Source: Zoogloea dura
Lineage (GTDB): Bacteria; Pseudomonadota; Gammaproteobacteria; Burkholderiales; Rhodocyclaceae
Direction: 5' to 3'
DNA: 64,000 bases
Assembly (NCBI RefSeq): GCF_012927165.1
Contig: NZ_JABBGA010000011.1
Location: forward strand, 62,001-126,000
The translations under genes and the position numbers were made by a program. The notes below the pieces were generated by a model that had not been told where the DNA came from, did no database searches, and saw nothing but the letters and a program-made list of their open reading frames with translations. Of this stretch, positions 5,155 to 56,970 are shown in pieces (the first letter of the stretch is position 1; the number at the start of each line of letters is the position of its first letter).

Positions 5155-5292
5155 GACGAGATCCTCGTTGAATGACAAAAGAAAATGGCCGAGCCGCCTG
5201 AGGCGGACCAGCCATGCACCGAAGGCTAACAGAAGCCGGTACGGGGGACAAACCTTCGGACTGGCCCGGCGGCGGATCGTTGCCCGATCGGC

Positions 5293-5298
5293 TAGAAT
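5293..5298 (+). promoter_or_regulatory. candidate -10 element of hisG
   Basis: TAGAAT lies 28 bp before the hisG TTG start, with no convincing -35 hexamer at the usual spacing. The same TAGAAT-TC context recurs 5' of the metallo-hydrolase gene (10643) and the FKBP gene (43384), which suggests a locally common sigma70 -10 sequence. Confidence 0.4.
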
Positions 5299-5325
5299 CT
5301 CTTTTTACGCAGACAGATCATCATC

Positions 5326-5970
5326 TTGAACGGCATTACGCTTGCCCTCTCGAAGGGCCGAATTTTCGAGGAGACCCTGCCGCTGCTCGCCGCCGCGGGG
5401 ATCACGCCGACCGACAACCCGGAAAGCTCGCGCAAACTCATCATCGGCACGAACCGGCCGGACGTGCGCCTGGTCATCGTGCGCGCCACCGACACGCCGA
5501 CCTACGTGCAGTACGGTGCCGCCGACATGGGCATTGCCGGCAAGGACGTCCTGATCGAGCACGGCGGCGCGGGCCTCTACCAGCCCCTCGACCTCAACAT
5601 CGCCAAGTGCCGCCTGTGCGTGGCGGTGCCCAAGGAGTTCGACTACGCCGCAGCCGTGAAGCGCGGCGCGCGCATCCGGGTCGCCACCAAGTACGTCAAG
5701 GCCGCCAAGGAACACTTTGCCGCCAAGGGCATGCACGTGGACCTGATCAAGCTCTACGGTTCCATGGAGCTGGCGCCGCTGGTCGGCCTGGCCGACGCCA
5801 TCGTCGACCTCGTATCCACCGGCAGCACCCTCAAGGCCAACAATCTCGTGGAGGTGGAGGACATCATGCCCATCAGCTCCCGTCTCGTTGTCAATCAGGC
5901 GTCCCTCAAGCTCAAGCGCGAGCTCATCCAGCCTGTGCTGGACGCCTTCGCCGGAGCAATCAGGCCATGA
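5326..5970 (+). CDS. hisG: ATP phosphoribosyltransferase, short form (HisG-S)
   Basis: 214 aa: the short form that lacks the regulatory ACT-like C-terminal domain and needs the HisZ partner for activity and feedback control. HisZ is not in the window. It catalyses the first histidine step, PRPP plus ATP. The start [19 protein letters not shown] and the PRPP loop [14 protein letters not shown] (residues 161-174) are clear. The start is TTG; no ATG precedes the conserved N-terminus, and no clear Shine-Dalgarno is visible. It overlaps hisD by 4 bp. Confidence 0.96.
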
Positions 5971-7286
5971 CTGAAGCCCTCATCCGCCGTCTCTCGTCCA
6001 GTCAGGCCGGGTTCACGGCCACCCTCGACGCGCTGCTGGCCTTCGAGGGCAGCACCGACGCCGCCATCGAGCAGGCCGTGGCCGACATCCTGCAGGCGGT
6101 GCGCCGCGACGGCGACCAGGCTGTCGTCGAATACACCCGCCGTTTCGACCACCTCGACGTGGCCGACATGACCGCGCTGGAGCTGCCCCGGGCCGAGCTG
6201 GAGGCCGCCCTTGCCGGCCTCTCCGCCGAGCAGCGCCAGGCCCTCGAGACCGCCGCCGAGCGGGTACGCAGCTACCACCAGCGCCAGGTGATCGAGTCCT
6301 GGCGCTACACCGACGAATCCCCGGGCATGGACGGTACCCGCCTGGGGCAGAAGGTCACCCCGCTCGACCGGGTCGGCCTGTATGTGCCTGGTGGCCGCGC
6401 CTCCTATCCCAGCTCGGTGCTGATGAACGCCATCCCCGCCAAGGTGGCCGGGGTGGGCGAGCTGATCATGGTGGTGCCGACCCCCCGCGGTGAGAAGAAT
6501 CCGCTGGTGCTGGCCGCCGCAGCCATCACCGGGGTGGACCGGGTGTTCACCATCGGCGGCGCCCAGGCCGTGGCCGCCCTGGCCTATGGCACGGCGACCA
6601 TCCCCCAGGTGGACAAGATCGTCGGCCCCGGCAACGCCTACGTGGCCAGTGCCAAGCGCCGGGTCTTCGGCACCGTCGGCATCGACATGGTGGCCGGCCC
6701 CTCCGAGGTGCTGGTGATCTCCGATGGTTCCGGCGAGCCCGACTGGGTGGCGATGGACCTCTTCGCCCAGGCCGAGCACGATGAGCTGGCCCAGTCCATC
6801 CTGCTGTGCACCGACGAGGCCTTCATCGGCCGGGTCGAGGCGAGCATCGCCCGTCTGTTGCCCGAGATGCCGCGCCGCGAGACCATCGCCGTGTCCCTGA
6901 AGAACCGTGGTGCGTTGATCCACGTGAAGGATCTGGCCGAGGCCTGCGCCATTGCCAACCGCATCGCGCCGGAGCACCTGGAGCTATCCCTGGACGACCC
7001 CTACCAGTGGATCGACGAGATCCGCCATGCCGGGGCCATCTTCATCGGCCACTACTCGGTCGAGGCGCTGGGTGACTACTGTGCCGGCCCGAACCACGTG
7101 TTGCCGACCATGCGCAGCGCCCGTTTCTCGAGCCCGCTGGGGGTCTATGACTTCCAGAAGCGCACCAGCCTGATCGACATCTCAGAACAGGGCGCCCAGA
7201 CCCTTGGCCGCATCGCCTCGGTGCTGGCCCACGGTGAAGGCCTGCAGGCCCACGCCCGCTCGGCGGAGATGCGCCTCAAATCCTGA
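5967..7286 (+). CDS. hisD: Histidinol dehydrogenase
   Basis: 439 aa from the ATG inside the hisG stop. It catalyses the last two steps of histidine synthesis, histidinol to histidine with two NAD. The signature [15 protein letters not shown] is present, and the catalytic Glu336-His337 pair lies in RIAPEHLEL. The frame stays open through hisG, but that upstream portion is shadow. In related bacteria hisC and hisB follow directly; here recQ follows on the other strand and the remaining his genes resume at about 43.8 kb. Confidence 0.98.
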
Positions 7287-7314
7287 ACGGCTTTCCAGCC
7301 CAGTCGCACCCATC

Positions 7315-7338
7315 AAGCCCGGCCCTCGCGCCGGGCTT
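7315..7338. terminator. hairpin terminator between hisD and recQ
   Basis: AAGCCCGGC and GCCGGGCTT form a 9-bp stem with a 6-nt loop (CCTCGC). It lies between two convergent genes, 29 bp after hisD and 12 bp after recQ on the other strand, so it could serve both. The following T-run is short and interrupted. Confidence 0.65.
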
Positions 7339-7349
7339 GTGCTTTCTGG

Positions 7350-9170
7350 TCAGTCCACCCCGGCCAGCAGGCCGAGGATGTCAGCCCCGTAGGCGTCCAG
7401 CTTGCGGTCGCCCACCCCCGAGATGGTGCCCAGCGCGGCTATGCTGTCCGGCCGCTGGCGGGCGATGTCGCGCAGGGTGGCGTCGTGGAAGATCACGTAG
7501 GCCGGTACGTTGCGTTCCTTGGCCGTGCTGGCCCGCCAGGCGCGCAGGCGCTCCAGCAGGGCGGCCTCGGCGCCGGTGGCCTCCGGCCAGTCGCGCAGCT
7601 TGCGGGTGGTGTCGGCCTTGCGGCCTTTCTTGGCCGGCGCTGCGTCGATGCGCAGGGTGAAGCTGCTCTCACCGCGCAGTAGCGGCCGGGCGGTCTCGGT
7701 GAGGGTCAGGGCGCCGTAGCGCTCGTGATCGACCGCCAGGGCGCCATGGGCCACCAGCTGGCGGATCAGGGTGCGCCAGCCCTTGTCATCCAGCTCGGAA
7801 CCGATGCCGAAGGTGCTGACCTGGTCGTGCTGCCACTCCTTGACCTTGTCGGTGGCCTTGCCCAGCAACACATCCACGATATGCCCGGCGCCGAAGCGGC
7901 TGCCCGTGCGGAACACGCAGGACAAGGCCTTGCGCGCCGATTCGCTGGCGTCGCGGACCTGGGGCGGGTTCAGGCAGGTGTCGCAGTTGCCGCAGGGCTC
8001 GGAGGCCTCGTCGAAATAGCCCAGCAGGCGCTGGCGGCGGCAGCCGGTGGTCTCGCACAGGCCCAGCAGGGCGTCCAGCTTGGCGGTGGACACGCGCTTG
8101 ACCTCGGCATTGGCCTCGCCCTGGTCGATGAAGCGGCGCTGCTGCACCAGGTCGGCCACGCTGTAGGCCATCCAGGCCTCGGCGGGCTGGCCGTCGCGGC
8201 CGGCGCGGCCGGTCTCCTGGTAGTAGCCTTCGATGGAGCGGGGCAGGTCGAGGTGGGCTACGAAGCGCACGTCCGGCTTGTCGATGCCCATGCCGAAGGC
8301 CACCGTGGCCACCATCACGATGCCGTCCTCGCGCAGGAAGCGGTCCTGGTTGATGGCCCGCTCCTCGGTGCCCATGCCGGCGTGGTAGGCCAGCGCGGCG
8401 ATACCCTTTTCCTGCAGCCAGGCGGCGGTTTCATCCACCTTCTTGCGGGAGCTGCAATAGACGATGCCGGCCTCGCCCAGGTGGCCGTCCTTCAGGAAGG
8501 CCAGCAGCTGGGCGCGGGGATTGTCCTTGGGGACGATGGTGTAGCGGATGTTGGGCCGGTCGAAGCTGGAGACGAACTCGCGCGCTTCGAGCAGGCGCAG
8601 GCGCTCGGCGATCTCGCGGCGGGTCTGGGCGTCTGCGGTGGCGGTCAGGGCGATCCGCGGCACCTGGGGGTAGCGCTCTGGCAGGATCGACAGCTGCAGG
8701 TATTCGGGGCGGAAGTCGTGGCCCCACTGGGACACGCAGTGGGCCTCGTCGATGGCGAAGAGGGCCAGCTGGCCGGCCTCGTGGAGGTGGTCGAGCAGAT
8801 CCAGGAAGCGCGGCGTGACCAGGCGTTCGGGGGCCACGTAGAGCATGTCGAGGGCGCCGGCGAGCATCGCCCGCTCGATCTCCATGGCCCGCTCGAAGCC
8901 CAGGCTGGAGTTGAGGAAGTCGGCCGCTGCCCCCACCTCCTTGAGGGCGCTGACCTGGTCCTGCATCAGGGCGATCAGCGGCGAGACGACGATGGCCACG
9001 CCGGGGCGCAGCAGGGCCGGGATCTGGTAGCACAGGGACTTGCCGCCGCCGGTGGGCATCAGTACCAGCGCATCGCCGCCGGCCGCCACGTGTTCGACGA
9101 TGTCCTCCTGCGGACCGCGGAAGCCGGTGTAGCCGAAGACGTGGAAGAGGGTTTCGCGGGCGCGGCTCAT
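7350..9170 (-). CDS. recQ: ATP-dependent DNA helicase RecQ
   Basis: 606 aa, full length. It is a 3'-5' DNA helicase of recombination repair. Walker A is MPTGGGKS (residues 38-45), and the DEAH box is in FAIDEAHCVSQWGHDFRPEY. The RQC zinc site is CGNCDTC with an upstream cysteine, and a C-terminal HRDC domain follows at about residues 530-606. Only 35 bp separate it from the nuclease-like gene upstream on the same strand, so the two are probably co-transcribed. An operon of a helicase and a nuclease suggests joint DNA processing, but that is inference. Confidence 0.97.
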   Translation of the reverse strand: MSRARETLFHVFGYTGFRGPQEDIVEHVAAGGDALVLMPTGGGKSLCYQIPALLRPGVAIVVSPLIALMQDQVSALKEVGAAADFLNSSLGFERAMEIERAMLAGALDMLYVAPERLVTPRFLDLLDHLHEAGQLALFAIDEAHCVSQWGHDFRPEYLQLSILPERYPQVPRIALTATADAQTRREIAERLRLLEAREFVSSFDRPNIRYTIVPKDNPRAQLLAFLKDGHLGEAGIVYCSSRKKVDETAAWLQEKGIAALAYHAGMGTEERAINQDRFLREDGIVMVATVAFGMGIDKPDVRFVAHLDLPRSIEGYYQETGRAGRDGQPAEAWMAYSVADLVQQRRFIDQGEANAEVKRVSTAKLDALLGLCETTGCRRQRLLGYFDEASEPCGNCDTCLNPPQVRDASESARKALSCVFRTGSRFGAGHIVDVLLGKATDKVKEWQHDQVSTFGIGSELDDKGWRTLIRQLVAHGALAVDHERYGALTLTETARPLLRGESSFTLRIDAAPAKKGRKADTTRKLRDWPEATGAEAALLERLRAWRASTAKERNVPAYVIFHDATLRDIARQRPDSIAALGTISGVGDRKLDAYGADILGLLAGVD

Positions 9171-22558: not shown

Positions 22559-23692
22559 TTAGTGAGTGTGCCCGCCGTCTGCGTGGCACAGGGCGGAAGG
22601 ATCGTCCATGGCCGCCGTACCCATCTGCTGCAGGTTGTCGAGCACCCGCATGGAGGCCCGTTCCATGATGTCCAGCTGGTTCAGTACCGCGGCCATGTCG
22701 GACGATGCATGGGCTTCCAGGGCGGCCACGCCGGCGCGGTGCACCTCGATGTGGGGGGGTTCGATCTCGCGGTAGCCGCTCAGTTTGCTGAAGCAGGCGC
22801 GGCCTTCACCTTCGTAATACCACTTGCCGAGGCGGCAGCCGGTGTGGGTGGCCACCTCGCCGGCGCGCAGGTCGAGCAGGCCGAAGATGGCCAGGTAGAT
22901 GCGGAACTTGAAGACGATGTGGTCGATCTTGGCCACCTCGACGAAGCTCTTCATGGCGCTGCCCGCGATCACGCCTTCCATGTTGCCCGACAGGCTCATC
23001 AGCAGCTTCATGTCCTCGGTGGCCTTCTGGCCCCGCTCGCTGAAGCGGCCGGCGGCCTGGGACAGGCTTTCCATGCTGTTGCGGGCGCGGGTGGAGTCCT
23101 CGCGGATACGGGTGACGAGGGTAGAGATCTCGGCGGTGGCGGTGGAGGTGCGCTCGGCCAGCTTGCGGACCTCGTCGGCCACCACGGCGAAGCCGCGGCC
23201 GGCCTCGCCGGCGCGGGCGGCCTCGATCGCGGCATTGAGGGCCAGCAGGTTGGTCTGGTCGGCCACTCCGTGGATCAGCTTGACGATGGCGCTGATCTCG
23301 TCGGCGCGCTGGGCCAGGGCGTCCACTTCCCGGGCCGAGTTCTCGGATTCGGCGGCCAGGCGTTGCAGGTTCTCGGCGATCTCGGTGGTGGCCTGGCCGC
23401 TGGTCTGGGAAACATGGGATGCCTCTACGGCCTTCACCTTCTCGTCCCGCAGCAGGCCGGCCATTTCGGCCAGGCTGCCCTGGGCGCCAGACAGGGAGTT
23501 GCCGAACTCGGCCATGCGCTGCACCACCGACAGCAGATCGTCGCAGCGGCGTTCCTTGTCGGAGTAGGTACGGCGGAGCGCATCGACTTCGCCGCGCAGG
23601 GTATTGATTTCGCCTTGCAGTGCCTGTTCCTGGTTGCGGCTGGCCTGGAGGTCGTTCTGAAGTTGCTCGTATTGCTTCCGGTTGATCCACAT
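22559..23692 (-). CDS. soluble methyl-accepting chemotaxis protein with C-terminal CZB zinc domain
   Basis: 377 aa with no membrane helix, so it is cytoplasmic. Residues 1-60 are a coiled coil. The signalling hairpin tip lies at about 155-182 ([20 protein letters not shown], then VRKLAERT). The C-terminal CZB domain has the zinc ligands His258 (KIDHIVFKF), Cys286 ([14 protein letters not shown]), His314 and His318 ([10 protein letters not shown]). CZB receptors sense zinc or hypochlorite through the Cys-Zn site, as shown for TlpD. The last ten residues are His-rich ([10 protein letters not shown]), possibly an extra metal site. No che genes are nearby. Confidence 0.93.
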
Positions 23693-23872: not shown

Positions 23873-23888
23873 TGTGGGAAAGCCGACA
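23873..23888 (+). promoter_or_regulatory. candidate NifA upstream activator sequence
   Basis: TGTGGGAAAGCCGACA fits the NifA consensus TGT-N10-ACA exactly. It lies about 120 bp before the -24 element, within the normal 80-150 bp range for enhancer-type activation. Confidence 0.55.
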
Positions 23889-24007
23889 AATGCTGACGCC
23901 AGCGCGGCTGCCTGAGCTGTCCAGGCTTGCCCGGCGATGTGCTGCAAGTCTTTGCAGGCCCGCAGCTGCGCGGGTTTGCGGATGCAGCGCCGGCGAGTGG
24001 CAAGCCC

Positions 24008-24023
24008 CGGCACTGATCTTGCT
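24008..24023 (+). promoter_or_regulatory. candidate sigma54 (-24/-12) promoter of the SagB-like operon
   Basis: CGGCACTGATCTTGCT matches the consensus TGGCAC-N5-TTGC(A/T), with the invariant GG and GC in the correct 10-bp register. The predicted transcript start is near 24033, which leaves a 22-nt leader before the ATG at 24056 and rules out the GTG at 24026 as the start. Confidence 0.65.
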
Positions 24024-24055
24024 GAGTGGGCGGGGAGACCTCTTTTTGTCAGCCC

Positions 24056-25654
24056 ATGCCGACTTCTGCCCCAACGATATCCATGCCAGCCGTAAGCCTT
24101 TCGGCCGGTGAGGTGGTCGGCGTCTATCAGCGTCGTACCAAGCACCACTTCGCCGCCTTTGCGTCGGGGCCGACCACGCTGGACTGGGATGCCCGGCCCG
24201 AGCCCTTCCGCCACTACGAGGGGGCCGCCGTCCTTCCCCTGCCGCTGGCCAGGGCTGCCGAGCTGACGTCACCGCCAAGCAGGCCCGCCGTCGCCGACCT
24301 GGCCGCCCTGGGAGCCCTGCTTCATCTCTCCTTCGGCCTGACCGCGTGGAAATCCCTGGGCCCCGATCGCTGGGCGCTGCGGGCCAATCCGTCCAGCGGA
24401 AATCTGCATCCAGTTGAGGTCTATGTGCTGGCGGCCGGCCTCCCGGAAATGGCCGACGGGCTGTATCACTACCTCCCCGATCGCCACGCCCTCGAGCTGC
24501 GGGCACGCCATCCGCAGCCCTTTGCGGCGGGACGGGCGCTGGCCATCGGTTTGAGCACTGTCATGTGGCGCGAGGCCTGGAAGTACGGCGAGCGGGCTTT
24601 CCGCTACTGCCAGCTGGATACCGGCCATGCCATCGGTGCGCTGCAGTACGCCGCCGCCCTGCTGGGCTGGCGCCCGGTGGAGCAGGGGCGGGTCGGAACG
24701 GACACGCTGGCAGCCCTGCTGGGGGTGGACCGGGCCGCGGAATTCCCCGGCCGGCGCGCCGACGTGAGCCATGAGGAGGCGGAGGTGTTGCTGGCCCTCG
24801 ACCTGGGCGACGGGGCGGCGGAGGTGGCCCCCGAGCTGAGCCCTGAAGCGCTGCGGGCGGTGAGTGGCGCGGCTGACTGGCAGGGAGTGGCCAGCGAGGT
24901 CGACCGTTTTCCGATGTTCCGCTGGCCACTCATCGACGAAGTGGCGCTGGCCACCCGGCGCCCCGACGATTGCGGCCTGGCCCCGGTGGTCCGGGCCTTG
25001 CCTCCGCTCCAGCCAGCCGCCCTGATCCTCGGCCGGCGCAGCGCCCAGCGCTTCGACCCCACGCACGTGATGAGCGCCACGGGCTTCGCCCGCCTGCTCG
25101 ATGTCCTGCGGGCGGATGTCGAGGCACGGGTGTCGTTGCTGCTCTTCGTGCATCGGGTGGAGGGCCTGGCACCGGGGCTTTACCTGCTGCCGCGGGGCCC
25201 GTGGAGCGGGGCGCTGACCGGAGGGCTGGCACTGGCCGGCGAGCCGGTGCTGGCGCCGTCCGGCCTGCTCCGCTTGCAGGCCATGGAGCCGGTGGCCCTG
25301 CGCCGCTTTGTCCGCAGCCTGCATTGCCACCAGGACATCGCCGCCAATGCCTGCCTGGCCTTCGGCATGCTCGCGCCCCTTGAGCCCCTGGTGGAGGCCG
25401 TACCCGCCGTCTACCGGGACCTGCTGCGCGAGGCGGGGCTGCTGGGGCAGACGCTCTATCTCGAAGCCGAGGCGATGGGCCTGCGCGGCACCGGCATCGG
25501 CTGCTTCTTTGACGACCCGGTGCACGAGGCGGCCGGCATCGACGTGGCCTGCTTCCAGGCCCTGTACCACTTCACCATCGGCCTGTCGGTGGACGACACC
25601 CGTATCGAGACAACGCCGGCCTATCCATTCCTGGCCGAGGAGCCCGCAGCATGA
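24056..25654 (+). CDS. SagB/ThcOx-like protein with two nitroreductase domains
   Basis: 532 aa from the ATG at 24056, chosen because it is the first start downstream of the sigma54 promoter; an ATG at 24083 is possible. Two FMN-dependent nitroreductase-type domains are arranged in tandem. The first (about 60-250) has the SagB signature RANPSSGNLHPVEVYVLA. The second (about 310-520) has LILGRRSAQRF and the C-terminal GTGIGCFFDDPVHEAAG. SagB enzymes oxidise azolines in peptide maturation, but no precursor peptide or cyclodehydratase is present. The overlap with a rhodanese gene and the NifA-type control suggest a nitrogen-fixation-linked redox role instead. That role is inferred. Confidence 0.85.
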   Translation: MPTSAPTISMPAVSLSAGEVVGVYQRRTKHHFAAFASGPTTLDWDARPEPFRHYEGAAVLPLPLARAAELTSPPSRPAVADLAALGALLHLSFGLTAWKSLGPDRWALRANPSSGNLHPVEVYVLAAGLPEMADGLYHYLPDRHALELRARHPQPFAAGRALAIGLSTVMWREAWKYGERAFRYCQLDTGHAIGALQYAAALLGWRPVEQGRVGTDTLAALLGVDRAAEFPGRRADVSHEEAEVLLALDLGDGAAEVAPELSPEALRAVSGAADWQGVASEVDRFPMFRWPLIDEVALATRRPDDCGLAPVVRALPPLQPAALILGRRSAQRFDPTHVMSATGFARLLDVLRADVEARVSLLLFVHRVEGLAPGLYLLPRGPWSGALTGGLALAGEPVLAPSGLLRLQAMEPVALRRFVRSLHCHQDIAANACLAFGMLAPLEPLVEAVPAVYRDLLREAGLLGQTLYLEAEAMGLRGTGIGCFFDDPVHEAAGIDVACFQALYHFTIGLSVDDTRIETTPAYPFLAEEPAA

Positions 25655-26484
25655 GCCAGACCGAAACACCTGCCCGCGCTCGCCGCGGCTTTCTCCGTAT
25701 TGACGCGACCCGGGCTGCCGACCTGATCCGGCGCGGGCGCAATGGCCAGTTACCCGGGCCCGCCGTGTTCGACGTGCGTGACCGGGCCAGCTTCGAGCAC
25801 CGTCACGTGGAGGGTGCCGAACACCTCACCGAGGCCGGCATTGGCGAGGTGTTCGGCCGCCTGCCGCGGGCCATGCCGGTCCTGGTCTACTGCTATCACG
25901 GCAATGCCAGCCAGGTTTTCGCGGAGATGTTTGCCGACTTCCGCTACGCGGAGGTGTATAGCGTGGATGGTGGCTTCGAGCCGCTGGTGGCGGCTCTGGC
26001 GGCCAGTGAGGCGGGGCGCCGCTCGCCCGCCCTGCCCGCCGGGGCGAGCGCCGGGTTGCGTGCCTTCCTGGCCGAGTTCGGTTTCGACCCGGGCAACCTG
26101 GATGCGACCCGCGAGCATGGCCTGACGCCGCTGATGCGGGCTGCGCTGCTTGGCCGCTGCGAGCTGCTGCAGGAGCTGCTGGCCGCCGGGGCGGACATCA
26201 AGCTGCGCAATGGCGATGGCAACAATGCGCTGTGGCTGGCCTGCGTGTCGCGGGAACCGGCCGCCATCCAGATCCTGGTGGCCGCGGGCATCGACCTGGA
26301 CAACCGCAATGACGTGGGAGCGACCTGCCTGATGTATGCGGCTTCCAGTGGCCGGGATGAGATCGTCGCAGCCCTGCTGGCGGCTGGGGCCGATGCCTAC
26401 GTGCGCAACGACGACGACGTCCTGGCGGTGGATCTGGCATCCACGCTGGAGTGCCTCCGTTTATTGAGGCATTCGGCGCGCTGA
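25651..26484 (+). CDS. rhodanese-ankyrin repeat fusion protein
   Basis: 277 aa, beginning in an ATGA overlap with the SagB-like gene. Residues about 15-115 are a single GlpE-type rhodanese domain with the active-site loop YCYHGNAS (Cys81). It could carry persulfide sulfur. Residues about 145-270 are three ankyrin repeats (HGLTPLMRAALLGRCELLQE, then DGNNALWLACVSREPAAIQI, then VGATCLMYAASSGRDEIVAA), probably for protein binding. There is no signal peptide. The pairing points to sulfur or redox handling for the partner nitroreductase or for a nitrogenase-related protein. Confidence 0.9.
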   Translation: MSQTETPARARRGFLRIDATRAADLIRRGRNGQLPGPAVFDVRDRASFEHRHVEGAEHLTEAGIGEVFGRLPRAMPVLVYCYHGNASQVFAEMFADFRYAEVYSVDGGFEPLVAALAASEAGRRSPALPAGASAGLRAFLAEFGFDPGNLDATREHGLTPLMRAALLGRCELLQELLAAGADIKLRNGDGNNALWLACVSREPAAIQILVAAGIDLDNRNDVGATCLMYAASSGRDEIVAALLAAGADAYVRNDDDVLAVDLASTLECLRLLRHSAR

Positions 26485-26565: not shown

Positions 26566-29094
26566 TCAGGCGGCCTGCCAGAGGATGACACTGCCGCCGG
26601 CTTCGATCGGCGGGTGGCGGCGGACCAGGCTTTCGATCTGCGCCGCCGGCACGGGCGGGCTGATCAGGTAGCCCTGGATCTTCTCGCAGCCGATGCTGCG
26701 CAGGAATTTCAGCTGGGCTTCGGTCTCCACCCCTTCGGCTACCACTTCCAGCCCCAGCCGGTGGGCCAGCAGCACGGTGACGTCGCAGATGTCAGCGTCG
26801 CTGGGGTCGGTCTCGATGTCCTTGACGAAGGAGCGGTCGATCTTCAGCGTGCGGATCGGGAAGAGCTTGAGGTAGGCCAGCGAGGAGTAGCCGGTGCCGA
26901 AGTCGTCGATCGACAGGGACAGGCCGCTGCCGGTGAGGGCCCGCATCACCTCGATGGTCTCGTTGGGGGAGGCCATCGACACCGATTCGGTGACTTCCAG
27001 GTCGAGCAGGCCGGCGTGCAGGCCATGGACCTCGAGCAGCTCGGCGATACGGGCTGGCAAGGTCTTGTCGAGGAATTGGCCGGTGCTCAGGTTGATCGAC
27101 ATCCGCAGCGGGTCGAGGCCAGCCTCGCGCCAGGCGCCGAGCTGGCGGCAGGCTTCCTGCAGCACCCAGTCGCCGATTGCGTCGATGATGCCGGCCTCTT
27201 CCGCCACCGGGATGAACTCGGCCGGCGGGATGAGGCCGCGGCTGGGGTGATTCCAGCGGATCAGGGCCTCGACCCCCACCAGCCGGCCGCTGCGCAGGTC
27301 GAGCTGGGGCTGGTAGTGGAGCACGAACTGCTCGCGCTCCAGGCCGCTGCGCAGTTCGGACTCGAGGGACAGGCGGCGGGTTGTCGCCGCGTTCATGCCT
27401 TCCGTGAAGAACTGGAAGTTGCCGCGACCCATGGCCTTGGCGTGGTACATGGCCACGTCGGCGTTCTTCAGGAGGTCGCCGATCTCGGTGGCGTCGTCCG
27501 GGTAGAGGCAGATGCCGATGCTGGGCGAGGTGCGCTGCTCCTGGCCGTTGATCAGGTAGGGCGCGGAAATGGCGCGGACGATCTTGTCGGCCACGTGGGC
27601 CGCATCGGTGGCGTCGGCCCCGTCCGGCAGGACCACCACGAACTCGTCGCCGCCCAGGCGCGCCACGATGTCGCTGGTTCGCACCGTGGCGCTCAGGCGC
27701 TTGGCCACCTGGATCAGCAACTCGTCGCCCACATGGTGGCCGAGGGTGTCGTTGATGGCCTTGAAGCGGTCGAGGTCGATCAGCATCAGGGCCAGGGACA
27801 TGCCGGTGCGCTGGCACAGCCCCACCGCCTGCGCGAGCTTTTCGTTGAGGCTGAAGCGGTTGGGCAGGTTGGTCAGGGTGTCGTGGTGGGCCAGGTGGCG
27901 GATCTGCTCCTCGGAGGCCTTCATCTCCGATATGTCGATGAAGTTGCCGATGTAGTTCTGCACCTGGCCGGCGGAATCCCGCACCATCGAGATGGACAGC
28001 CACTTGGGATAGGCCTCGCCGTCCCGCCGGCGGTCCCACAGTTCGCCCTGCCAGGCGCCGTTCTGTTCCAGGTCGGCCCACATTTCCCGATAGACCTCGG
28101 GGGGCGTGATGCCGGCTGACAGGATGCGCGGGTTCTGGCCCAGGACCTCCTCCTGACGGTAGCCGGTGAGCTTGGTGAAGGCCTGGTTGGTGGCCACTAT
28201 GCGGTTCTCCGCGTCGGTGACGATGATCGCCTCGTTGCTGTTGGAGAACACGGTGGCCAGCAGGCGCAGGTGCTCGTCGTTGCGTTTGCGTTCGGAGATG
28301 TCCTGCACCGTGCCTTCGTAGCAGATGAACTCGCCCTGGGGGCCGCGTACGGTGTGGGCGTTTTCCGAGATCCAGATGCATGAGCCGTCGCGGCGCCGCA
28401 CCTCGGACTCGAAGTTGATCACCTCGCCGTGCATTGCCATCAGGTGGCGGAAGCGGCGGCGCCTTTCGGGATCCACGTAGAGCCGGCTCTCGATGTCCGA
28501 CAGGTCAGCCATCAGCTCCTCCGGCGTGGTGTAGCCGTAGAGGCGCGCCAGGGCCGGGTTGGCAGCCAGGTAGCGGCCTTCGCGGGTGGTCTGGAAGATG
28601 CCCTCGGAGGCGTACTCGAAGATGTGGCGGTAGCGCAGCTCGGAATGGGCCAGGGCGTCCAGGGTGGCCTGGCGGGGCGTCACGTCTTCGATGAAGCCCT
28701 CGATGACCACCCGGCCTTCTTCGTCGGGTACCGTGATGCCGCGTTCGAGCACCCAGCGGGTCTCACCGTCGGCGGTCTGGATGCGGTATTGCACGGCGAA
28801 ACGCTGGCCTTCCCGCGCGGCCCGGCGGATCTGCTCGCGGATCCGGGCCCGGTCTTCCGGGTGGGTGATGTTCTCCCAGCTGATGAAGGCGTTGTCTACG
28901 ATCTCGGCCGGCGCATAGCCGCACAGCCCGGTGCTGCCCTGGCTGACGAAGACCATGGTCCAGTGCTCGTCATCCAGGCAGCGGTACACCATCCCCTCCA
29001 GGTTGTTGACCAGGGTGTCGAGAATGCGGGTCCGGTCCACGGCCCTGGCGGTGAGGAAACTGTTGCGGCGGAGACGTCCTGCTTGGGCTTGCAC
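26566..29094 (-). CDS. PAS-PAS-PAS-GGDEF-EAL cyclic-di-GMP signalling protein
   Basis: 842 aa from a GTG at 29094; no better start precedes the first PAS domain. Three PAS/PAC units span about 25-400 (for example MVFVSQGSTGLCGYAPAEIV, IFEYASEGIFQTTREGRYLA, and IIVTDAENRIVATNQAF). The diguanylate cyclase domain has an intact active site, RLGGDEFVVVLPDG, near residue 480. The phosphodiesterase domain has VGVEALIRWNHP near 609 and later DDFGTGYSSLAYLK. Both catalytic motifs look intact, so net activity cannot be called. There is no membrane segment, so it is cytoplasmic; the PAS ligand (oxygen, redox, small molecule) is unknown. Confidence 0.95.
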   Translation of the reverse strand: MQAQAGRLRRNSFLTARAVDRTRILDTLVNNLEGMVYRCLDDEHWTMVFVSQGSTGLCGYAPAEIVDNAFISWENITHPEDRARIREQIRRAAREGQRFAVQYRIQTADGETRWVLERGITVPDEEGRVVIEGFIEDVTPRQATLDALAHSELRYRHIFEYASEGIFQTTREGRYLAANPALARLYGYTTPEELMADLSDIESRLYVDPERRRRFRHLMAMHGEVINFESEVRRRDGSCIWISENAHTVRGPQGEFICYEGTVQDISERKRNDEHLRLLATVFSNSNEAIIVTDAENRIVATNQAFTKLTGYRQEEVLGQNPRILSAGITPPEVYREMWADLEQNGAWQGELWDRRRDGEAYPKWLSISMVRDSAGQVQNYIGNFIDISEMKASEEQIRHLAHHDTLTNLPNRFSLNEKLAQAVGLCQRTGMSLALMLIDLDRFKAINDTLGHHVGDELLIQVAKRLSATVRTSDIVARLGGDEFVVVLPDGADATDAAHVADKIVRAISAPYLINGQEQRTSPSIGICLYPDDATEIGDLLKNADVAMYHAKAMGRGNFQFFTEGMNAATTRRLSLESELRSGLEREQFVLHYQPQLDLRSGRLVGVEALIRWNHPSRGLIPPAEFIPVAEEAGIIDAIGDWVLQEACRQLGAWREAGLDPLRMSINLSTGQFLDKTLPARIAELLEVHGLHAGLLDLEVTESVSMASPNETIEVMRALTGSGLSLSIDDFGTGYSSLAYLKLFPIRTLKIDRSFVKDIETDPSDADICDVTVLLAHRLGLEVVAEGVETEAQLKFLRSIGCEKIQGYLISPPVPAAQIESLVRRHPPIEAGGSVILWQAA

Positions 29095-55432: not shown

Positions 55433-56970
55433 CGGGCTCCAGCCATACCCTGCGCCTGGTCCTGGGGGATCAGCTGAATCCCGGGCATTCATGGTTTCAG
55501 ACCGTGGATCCGCAGGTGGTGTACGTGCTCATGGAGGTGCGCCAGGAGACCGACTACGTGCTTCACCATGCGCAGAAGATCATCGCCATCTTTGCCGCCA
55601 TGCGCGAGTTCGCCCGTCAGCTGCGCGCAGCGGGGCACCGGGTGCGCTACGTGACGCTGGACGATCCGAGCAACCGCCAATCCATCCCGGAGAACCTGGC
55701 TGCGCTGGTACAGCACTACGCTGCCCGGCGCCTGGAGTGGCAGTCTCCCGACGAATGGCGGCTGGATGTCCTGCTGCGCAGCTGGGCTGCACAGCAGGAA
55801 CTGACGACCGAGGAGGTCGGCAGCGAGCATTTCCTGACCGCCCGGCACGAGCTGGCCGAGCTGTTCGCGGGCCGCAAGCAATGGCTGATGGAGCATTTCT
55901 ACCGCCACATGCGCCGCCGCTTTGGCCTGCTGATGGATGCCCAGGGCAAGCCCGAAGGCGGGCAGTGGAACTTCGATCACGACAACCGCAAGCCCTGGCC
56001 GGGCACGCCGGCGGAGCCGCTGGACGCGCGCCCCGTGCATGACCACAGCGGGCTGTGGGCGATGCTTGCCCGCTGCGGGGTCGGCAGCTTCGGCGATGCC
56101 CAGGCCGGGGAGATGCGCTGGCCGGTGAATCGCAGCGAGGCGCTGGCCTGCCTGGAGGCCTTCGTCCAGACCGCGCTGCCGCACTTCGGCGACTTTGAAG
56201 ACGCCATGAGCAGCACGAGCCCGCGCCTGTTCCACTCGCTGCTGTCGTTTGCGCTCAACGTGAAGATGCTCCACCCGCTCGAGGTGGTGCTGCGGGCCGA
56301 GGCGGCCTACCGGCAGGGCCGGGCACCCCTGGCGGCGGTGGAGGGCTTCGTGCGGCAGATTGTGGGCTGGCGCGAGTATGTGCGGGGCATCTACTGGGCG
56401 CACATGCCCGGCTACGACGAAGGCAATGCGCTCGGCCACCACCTGCCCTTGCCGCACTGGTTCTGGAGCGGCGAGACAGGCATGCGCTGCCTGCAGCATG
56501 CGATCGGCCAGTCACTGCGCACGGCGCATGCCCACCACATCCAGCGCCTGATGGTGATCGGCAATTTCGCGCTGCTCGCCGGGCTGGACCCGCAGGCGCT
56601 GCACCGCTGGTACCTGGGCGTCTATATCGATGCCTTCGAGTGGGTGGAGCTGCCCAACACCCTGGGCATGAGCCAGTGGGCCGACGGCGGCATCATCGCC
56701 ACCAAGCCCTATGTCAGCAGCGCGGCCTACATTCGTCGCATGAGCGACTACTGCCAGGGCTGTCGTTACGACCACAAGCAGCGGATTGGCGACAAGGCTT
56801 GCCCCTTCAATGCCCTGTACTGGGATTTCTTCGCCCGCCATGAGCCACTGCTGGGCGGCAACCATCGCCTGGGCATGGTGTACCGGCAGCTGCAGAAGAT
56901 GCCGCCAGCCGAGCGCGATGCCCTGCAGGCGCAGGCTCAGGGCCTTCGTGGGGGCCTGGAGGCGCTTTGA
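55429..56970 (+). CDS. iron-sulfur bacterial cryptochrome/photolyase (FeS-BCP, PhrB-type 6-4 photolyase)
   Basis: 513 aa from the ATG at 55429, in the DASH stop; a GTG 12 bp upstream is less likely. The start TLRLVLGDQLNPGHSWF is the FeS-BCP form. The [4Fe-4S] ligands are Cys354, Cys442, Cys445 and Cys458 (MRCLQ, YCQGC and ACPFN), each exactly four residues beyond the Cys350/438/441/454 set of Agrobacterium PhrB. FAD-domain parts such as NTLGMSQWADGGIIATKPYV are intact. The family repairs (6-4) photoproducts and binds FAD plus a lumazine antenna. It closes the cluster before a terminator. Confidence 0.95.
   Translation: MTGSSHTLRLVLGDQLNPGHSWFQTVDPQVVYVLMEVRQETDYVLHHAQKIIAIFAAMREFARQLRAAGHRVRYVTLDDPSNRQSIPENLAALVQHYAARRLEWQSPDEWRLDVLLRSWAAQQELTTEEVGSEHFLTARHELAELFAGRKQWLMEHFYRHMRRRFGLLMDAQGKPEGGQWNFDHDNRKPWPGTPAEPLDARPVHDHSGLWAMLARCGVGSFGDAQAGEMRWPVNRSEALACLEAFVQTALPHFGDFEDAMSSTSPRLFHSLLSFALNVKMLHPLEVVLRAEAAYRQGRAPLAAVEGFVRQIVGWREYVRGIYWAHMPGYDEGNALGHHLPLPHWFWSGETGMRCLQHAIGQSLRTAHAHHIQRLMVIGNFALLAGLDPQALHRWYLGVYIDAFEWVELPNTLGMSQWADGGIIATKPYVSSAAYIRRMSDYCQGCRYDHKQRIGDKACPFNALYWDFFARHEPLLGGNHRLGMVYRQLQKMPPAERDALQAQAQGLRGGLEAL

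Follow-up and report, generated by a model that had tools for sequence, protein, structure and literature searches.

A 64,000-nucleotide stretch of the Zoogloea dura genome (assembly GCF_012927165.1, contig NZ_JABBGA010000011.1, positions 62,001-126,000 of the forward strand; hereafter the window, from whose start coordinates are counted) contains a pair of overlapping genes, respectively coding for a SagB-like double nitroreductase and a rhodanese domain fused to ankyrin repeats, which probably constitute a two-gene unit of the nitrogen fixation (nif) regulon, accessory to nitrogenase. The pair looks like a nitrogenase helper because the branch to which its enzyme belongs accompanies nif genes and carries a nif-type switch. 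The tie to nitrogen fixation, proposed in a first-pass annotation of this DNA, is well supported: it is backed by conservation of the control motifs, by co-occurrence across genomes, by physical proximity to nif genes in many relatives and by the published induction of a probable ortholog. The elements of the locus are:

23873..23888, + strand: NifA-type upstream activator sequence TGT-N10-ACA, kept in 7/7 compared genus members (CCGACAAA aligned)
24008..24023, + strand: sigma54 -24/-12 promoter GG-N10-GC, with GGC.C.GATCTTGCT in 7/7 compared genus members
24056..25654, + strand: SagB-like double nitroreductase, 532 amino acids counted from a conserved ATG (the longest open reading frame begins at the GTG at 24026)
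25651..26484, + strand: rhodanese domain (GlpE-like loop) fused to ankyrin repeats, 277 amino acids, its start overlapping the SagB-like stop by 4 bp

The two motifs and the gene overlap called by the first-pass annotation are all present in the window sequence, with a spacing of 119 bp between the activator site and the promoter. The motif pair in the window would not stand alone, because each single motif is at chance level there: two TGT-N10-ACA sites against 5.6 expected, and 15 sites resembling a -24/-12 promoter with at most two mismatches against 13.4 expected. The sole other TGT-N10-ACA of the window lies at 56761-56776. An alignment of seven of the 12 gene-bearing members of the genus is mostly diverged upstream of the gene, yet CCGACAAA, GGC.C.GATCTTGCT and the start codon (ATG, 24056) line up in all seven. 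Upstream of the genome's own nifH, two TGT-N10-ACA sites are followed by TGGCACGGCGATTGC, the same layout as at the pair, and NifA itself is encoded in the genome (693 bits against a cut-off of 529).

In evolutionary terms, a tree of 134 SagB-like proteins places the window protein in a branch of 76 rows (the nif branch); the sister branch has 36 rows, a Methylobacter clade has 16 and six rows fall elsewhere. These groups were recovered again with a different alignment and FastTree, the nif branch having an IQ-TREE SH-aLRT support of 97 and a FastTree support of 0.939. Within the nif branch 21 of the 23 rows of known status are nifD-positive; its row G167 matches the nifD model at just 310 bits, which is at the level of NifE, and its row G001, from a genome bin that is 72% complete, has no nifD match. 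The sister branch is mixed (15 of its 30 status-known rows are nifD-positive). The source genome (5.83 Mb in 83 contigs) is diazotrophic by gene content, with nifH, nifD and nifA on a contig other than that of the pair. Among 100 relatives, its own genome included, the SagB-like gene was found in 27, nifD in 40 and both in 23 (Fisher p 2e-8, uncorrected for kinship; the Fisher tables here and below exclude a weak SagB match in G034 and a weak nifD match in G060). Across the phylum, 299 genomes yielded SagB-family matches in 30, nifD in 32 and both in 17, i.e., matches in 17 of the 32 nifD-positive as against 13 of the 267 nifD-negative genomes; with the rhodanese-ankyrin partner nearly confined to the nif branch, this goes against the outcome that the first-pass annotation had named as fatal to its proposal, a pair equally common in genomes that lack nitrogenase. 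For the nif branch as such, the phylum-wide association carries little weight, because most of its matches fall in the mixed sister branch.

The control motifs follow the same division. We compared 420 upstream bases per gene, with the chance level set by shuffling; 4 of the 76 nif-branch, 5 of the 36 sister-branch and 2 of the 16 Methylobacter rows fall outside these tests, their upstream regions being too short or belonging to L168-L172. TGT-N10-ACA occurs in 31/72 nif-branch upstreams (shuffled mean 2.9, largest 8 among 100 shuffles), 5/31 sister-branch ones (mean 1.8, largest 6) and 4/14 from Methylobacter-clade rows (mean 1.1, largest 5). The ordered pair, i.e., a sigma54 score of at least 8/11 located 30-170 bp downstream of an activator site, is found in 19 of the 72 nif-branch upstreams (shuffled mean 0.12, largest 2 in 200 shuffles), none of the 31 from the sister branch (mean 0.13) and one of 14 from the Methylobacter clade (mean 0.08), which shows no clear control signal. 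A strict sigma54 score of at least 10/11 gave just 2/72 upstreams and zero pairs; the pair test was run after it, at 7, 8 and 9 of 11, with the threshold chosen post hoc, and the respective counts are 21, 19 and 9 of 72 against shuffled means of 0.60, 0.12 and 0.01. The nif-branch count may itself be lowered, because genes inside longer nif operons may need no promoter of their own. Judged by these motifs, a putative NifA/sigma54-type control region is conserved in relatives. A control that is not nif-specific, whether a general response to low nitrogen (NtrC-type) or another form of sigma54 regulation, could be entertained in its place, given that sigma54 promoters serve many activators and that the NifA model finds 27 matches in the genome, one of them over the cut-off; however, the pairing with TGT-N10-ACA, the location of many relatives in nif clusters and the near-confinement of the clade to nif genomes make this improbable.

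The neighbors of the pair in the window, both on the minus strand, encode a chemotaxis protein that carries a zinc-binding domain (22559-23692) and, on the other side, a PAS-GGDEF-EAL protein (26566-29094); neither has an evident relation to the pair. The search for the gene beside nif clusters elsewhere, which the first-pass annotation had advocated, covered 79 loci: the best 80 of at least 580 confirmed matches, minus one truncated SagB piece (L015, L060, L167 and L036 being the truncated pieces excluded). This set is biased to the nif branch because it is ranked by likeness to the window protein. In it, 38 of the 79 loci have a nif-type gene within ~10 kb, namely NifH/D/K/E/N/U/V/W in 30, only the NifX family in seven and only NifO in one. 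The genera surveyed include Sulfuricella, Xanthobacter, Methylocapsa, Rhodoblastus, Acidithiobacillus and Methylobacter, and the alpha-, beta- and gammaproteobacteria all have members with such a pair inside a nif cluster. The annotation of a Methylococcus plasmid places nifK-nifD-nifH next to a divergent run that starts with a response regulator, a truncated hemoglobin, a hypothetical protein, a Rieske protein and another hypothetical protein, and continues with an ArsC/Spx (NifO-like) protein, the nitroreductase, a GlpE rhodanese, a hypothetical protein and an ankyrin protein; thus, the rhodanese and ankyrin modules that are fused in the window's partner are here split genes.

Several further arrangements were observed around these genes. 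A small response-regulator-like gene divergent from nifH heads a run of NifO, SagB-like and rhodanese-ankyrin genes at L098:7752-8243 (Response_reg by Pfam), L038:8940-9335 and L168:5231-5656. In the own genome (L037:5281-8776, contig C56), two conserved genes lie divergent from nifH at 8114-8776 and 7546-8151, the latter without a Pfam match, and beyond them a gene for DraT (6646-7518) and a NifO-like frame of the ArsC family (5281-6414); the assignment of this last frame as DraG-like was rejected, since Pfam gives ArsC. In the Methylobacter clade (L107, L111, L123, L129, L132, L134, L135 and L136) the genes next to the SagB-like one are those of NifZ, IscA, NifU, NifS and NifV, and there is no ankyrin partner. 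A sister-branch homologue on the Polaromonas plasmid pE3SP1 (L171) is part of an island of iron-sulfur (Fe-S) genes: BolA, Grx4, two of the NifU family, a rhodanese, LipA and MoaA.

The closer neighbors, surveyed within 5 kb at 49 nif-branch loci with 3 kb or more of flank on each side, bear on electron supply and protection, which are the serious rivals. Under the former, a protein with flavin mononucleotide (FMN) would link nitrogenase to NAD(P)H, flavodoxin, ferredoxin or Rnf by electron transfer, with the rhodanese-ankyrin protein as an accessory. Flavodoxin is present in six and Rnf in six of the 49 loci, and genome G048 has, in a row, the SagB-like gene, the rhodanese-ankyrin gene, a gene for a 108-amino-acid small protein and flavodoxin. 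Further, in five Methyloversatilis-type loci (L049, L062, L066, L070 and L081) the gene comes after rnf genes ending in RnfH (Rnf/RnfH by Pfam). However, flavodoxin and Rnf are absent near most of the 49 loci and the rhodanese has no evident part in such a role, so we hold electron supply to be possible but not likely. Under the latter, the enzyme, an NAD(P)H oxidase or a reductase acting in detoxification, would protect nitrogenase by clearing oxygen, nitric oxide or reactive electrophiles. A glutathione transferase is encoded in seven, a Rieske protein in four and a truncated hemoglobin in two of the 49 loci, but such neighbors are a minority and the rhodanese partner is no natural fit; hence, we consider protection unlikely.

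A BLAST-detectable relative of the rhodanese-ankyrin partner adjoins the SagB-like gene in 57 of the 76 nif-branch rows (at a distance of at most 180 bp in 56 and of 635 bp in one), and none was detected beside the gene in the 36 sister-branch rows, many of which have just 1.5 kb of flank, or in the 16 Methylobacter-clade rows. The confinement is not strict, as one of the six rows outside the three groups (L140) has it. The locus L168, with split rhodanese and ankyrin genes, was scored as lacking the partner, and in L169-L172 none was found within the 5 kb searched. Of 43 rows examined, some of them from the same genome, 21 have an overlap of exactly four bases. The window's partner scores 47 bits against PF00581 (cut-off 22.2), and the rhodanese-loop cysteine is present, by eye, in all 21 rhodanese-bearing rows of a 26-row alignment, the other five being ankyrin-only. 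On a Paraburkholderia aromaticivorans plasmid, a rhodanese-ankyrin gene lies beside nifH with no SagB-like gene annotated in the 13.8 kb covered. In Paraburkholderia phymatum, a published table gives an ankyrin gene, Bphy_7751, two locus tags from nifH, as down in a nifA mutant with a value of -7.11 (PMC8305402).

Expression data come from Azoarcus olearius BH72, in which azo2278, azo2279 and azo2280 are, in the text of a 2021 paper, 490-, 373- and 443-fold induced under N2 fixation (PMC8467165). That text ascribes two nitroreductase domains to Azo2278, prints all three as hypothetical proteins without a function and describes azo2280 as unique to Azoarcus (PMC8467165). Genome G048 has a single SagB-like match at 57.7% of a 4.45-Mb contig and nifD at 13.0%; in BH72, azo2278 stands at 57.1% and azo0538 (nifH) at 13.5% of 3989 genes. 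The first-pass annotation had called the step undescribed: the induction was already in print in 2021, so that the nif tie is partly anticipated by published RNA-seq, and what stands is that no function was given in that text (PMC8467165). Among the open-licence PMC papers listed by our searches, supplements aside, we found neither a function assignment nor a description of nif linkage for the pair. In relatives from at least two genera, the pair or the SagB-like gene is followed by a gene for a protein of 105-109 amino acids (L046:11841-12167, L059:12484-12801, L052:7852-8169 and L072:2542-2871), the L046 copy having no Pfam match; it may correspond to azo2280.

As for the enzyme, the window protein matches the SagB model TIGR03605 at 108.6 bits (cut-off 78.4) and holds two nitroreductase halves in one chain, as do double nitroreductases of the 3eo7 kind. 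C424, C483, K176 and Y177 are invariant in all 134 rows of the tree. The SagB name would make it an azoline dehydrogenase of a peptide (TOMM) pathway, a label that the first-pass annotation had already judged not to fit. We agree, and regard this role as exceedingly improbable: no YcaO is encoded near the pair, precursor peptides not having been searched for; the genome's single YcaO lies on contig C83 and the pair on C3; and none of 20 annotated neighbor clusters is a YcaO. An FMN-binding or storage protein like mycobacterial Acg, with no turnover, is a very improbable identity as well.

Certain observations weigh against the assignment of the pair to the nif regulon, or against particular parts of it. 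No nif gene was found beside the SagB-like gene within the window. Among the 100 relatives, 17 of the 40 nifD-positive genomes lack the SagB-like enzyme; hence, it is not essential for diazotrophy. Within the genus, it occurs in 11 of 17 nifD-positive as against one of six nifD-negative genomes, which is not significant (p 0.07). The conserved cysteines were rejected as a nif signature, C424 and C483 being invariant in the mixed sister branch too. Sulfur transfer cannot be obligatory, because several members have an ankyrin-only partner. The orthology of azo2278 to the window's SagB-like gene is probable, and derives from description, gene order and position rather than sequence. In the main text of an earlier paper on BH72, with an array and NifA sites, azo2278-2280 go unnamed, and azo2278 is not among the eight genes listed there as having sites for both RpoN and NifA (PMC3916325).

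On balance, we favor the pair as a nitrogenase accessory and advance the following mechanism. During nitrogen fixation, expression of the pair would be turned on by NifA with sigma54. The SagB-like protein is a predicted FMN oxidoreductase, whose two nitroreductase halves would fold as a pseudo-dimer and which would act in thiol/persulfide redox or electron transfer for the maturation or support of nitrogenase. The cysteine of the rhodanese would carry sulfane sulfur or a persulfide, whereas the ankyrin part would dock on the SagB-like enzyme or on a partner in nitrogenase assembly. The first-pass annotation had spoken of a redox/sulfur step, which is an inference from the folds; the likeliest chemistry, put forward only tentatively, would be a two-electron redox reaction of a thiol or persulfide for the assembly or repair of nif Fe-S clusters or cofactor, possibly via C424 and C483. 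More speculatively still, and with little expectation that it holds in full, the ankyrin-tethered rhodanese might present a persulfide that the FMN enzyme reduces to sulfide, or resolves, via C424/C483 under NifA control, as a dedicated reductant for nif Fe-S or cofactor assembly. To our knowledge, the NIF-type sulfur pathway has an electron-donor step to which no enzyme is assigned; if true, the dedicated reductant would supply it. The list of nitrogenase helper proteins is still growing, and the transfer of nitrogenase to new hosts relies on it. The pair, whose probable ortholog is induced hundreds-fold in a model endophyte with no role assigned to it, is a specific candidate for a step in nitrogenase maturation, redox or protection that has been overlooked.

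Against the backdrop of known systems, the partner resembles the RhdN rhodanese, which along with NifO belongs to Azotobacter nif clusters: rhodaneses of this pair occur in nif clusters of relatives, and ArsC-family (NifO-like) genes adjoin the SagB-like gene in several loci, but we know of no ankyrin fusion in RhdN. With GlpE-type rhodaneses it shares a CYHGNAS loop with its cysteine, but it lies below the cut-off of the model (NF001195, 69.7 bits against 102) and is fused to ankyrin repeats. The enzyme exceeds the curated cut-off for the SagB/ThcOx/McbC dehydrogenases (TIGR03605) and is predicted to share their fold; it differs from them in having no YcaO nearby and in having nif-linked relatives. 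The putative nitroreductase Ava_2154 of Anabaena variabilis (3eo7) has, in a profile alignment judged by eye, I, L and G at the places of C185, C424 and C483, with a cysteine one place before the position of C424. The azo2278-azo2279-azo2280 set, strongly induced under N2 fixation, joins a double nitroreductase to two more genes, as does the gene row of G048, whereas the text on the BH72 set reports no promoter, clade or nif-cluster link (PMC8467165). Finally, the Avin_02400 nitroreductase of Azotobacter vinelandii is, in the article text, part of a sigma54- and VnfA1-dependent operon tied to the vanadium nitrogenase (PMC9542535); like the window gene it codes for a nitroreductase, with putative sigma54 control in the case of the window, but its operon partners are a transporter and a GTPase.
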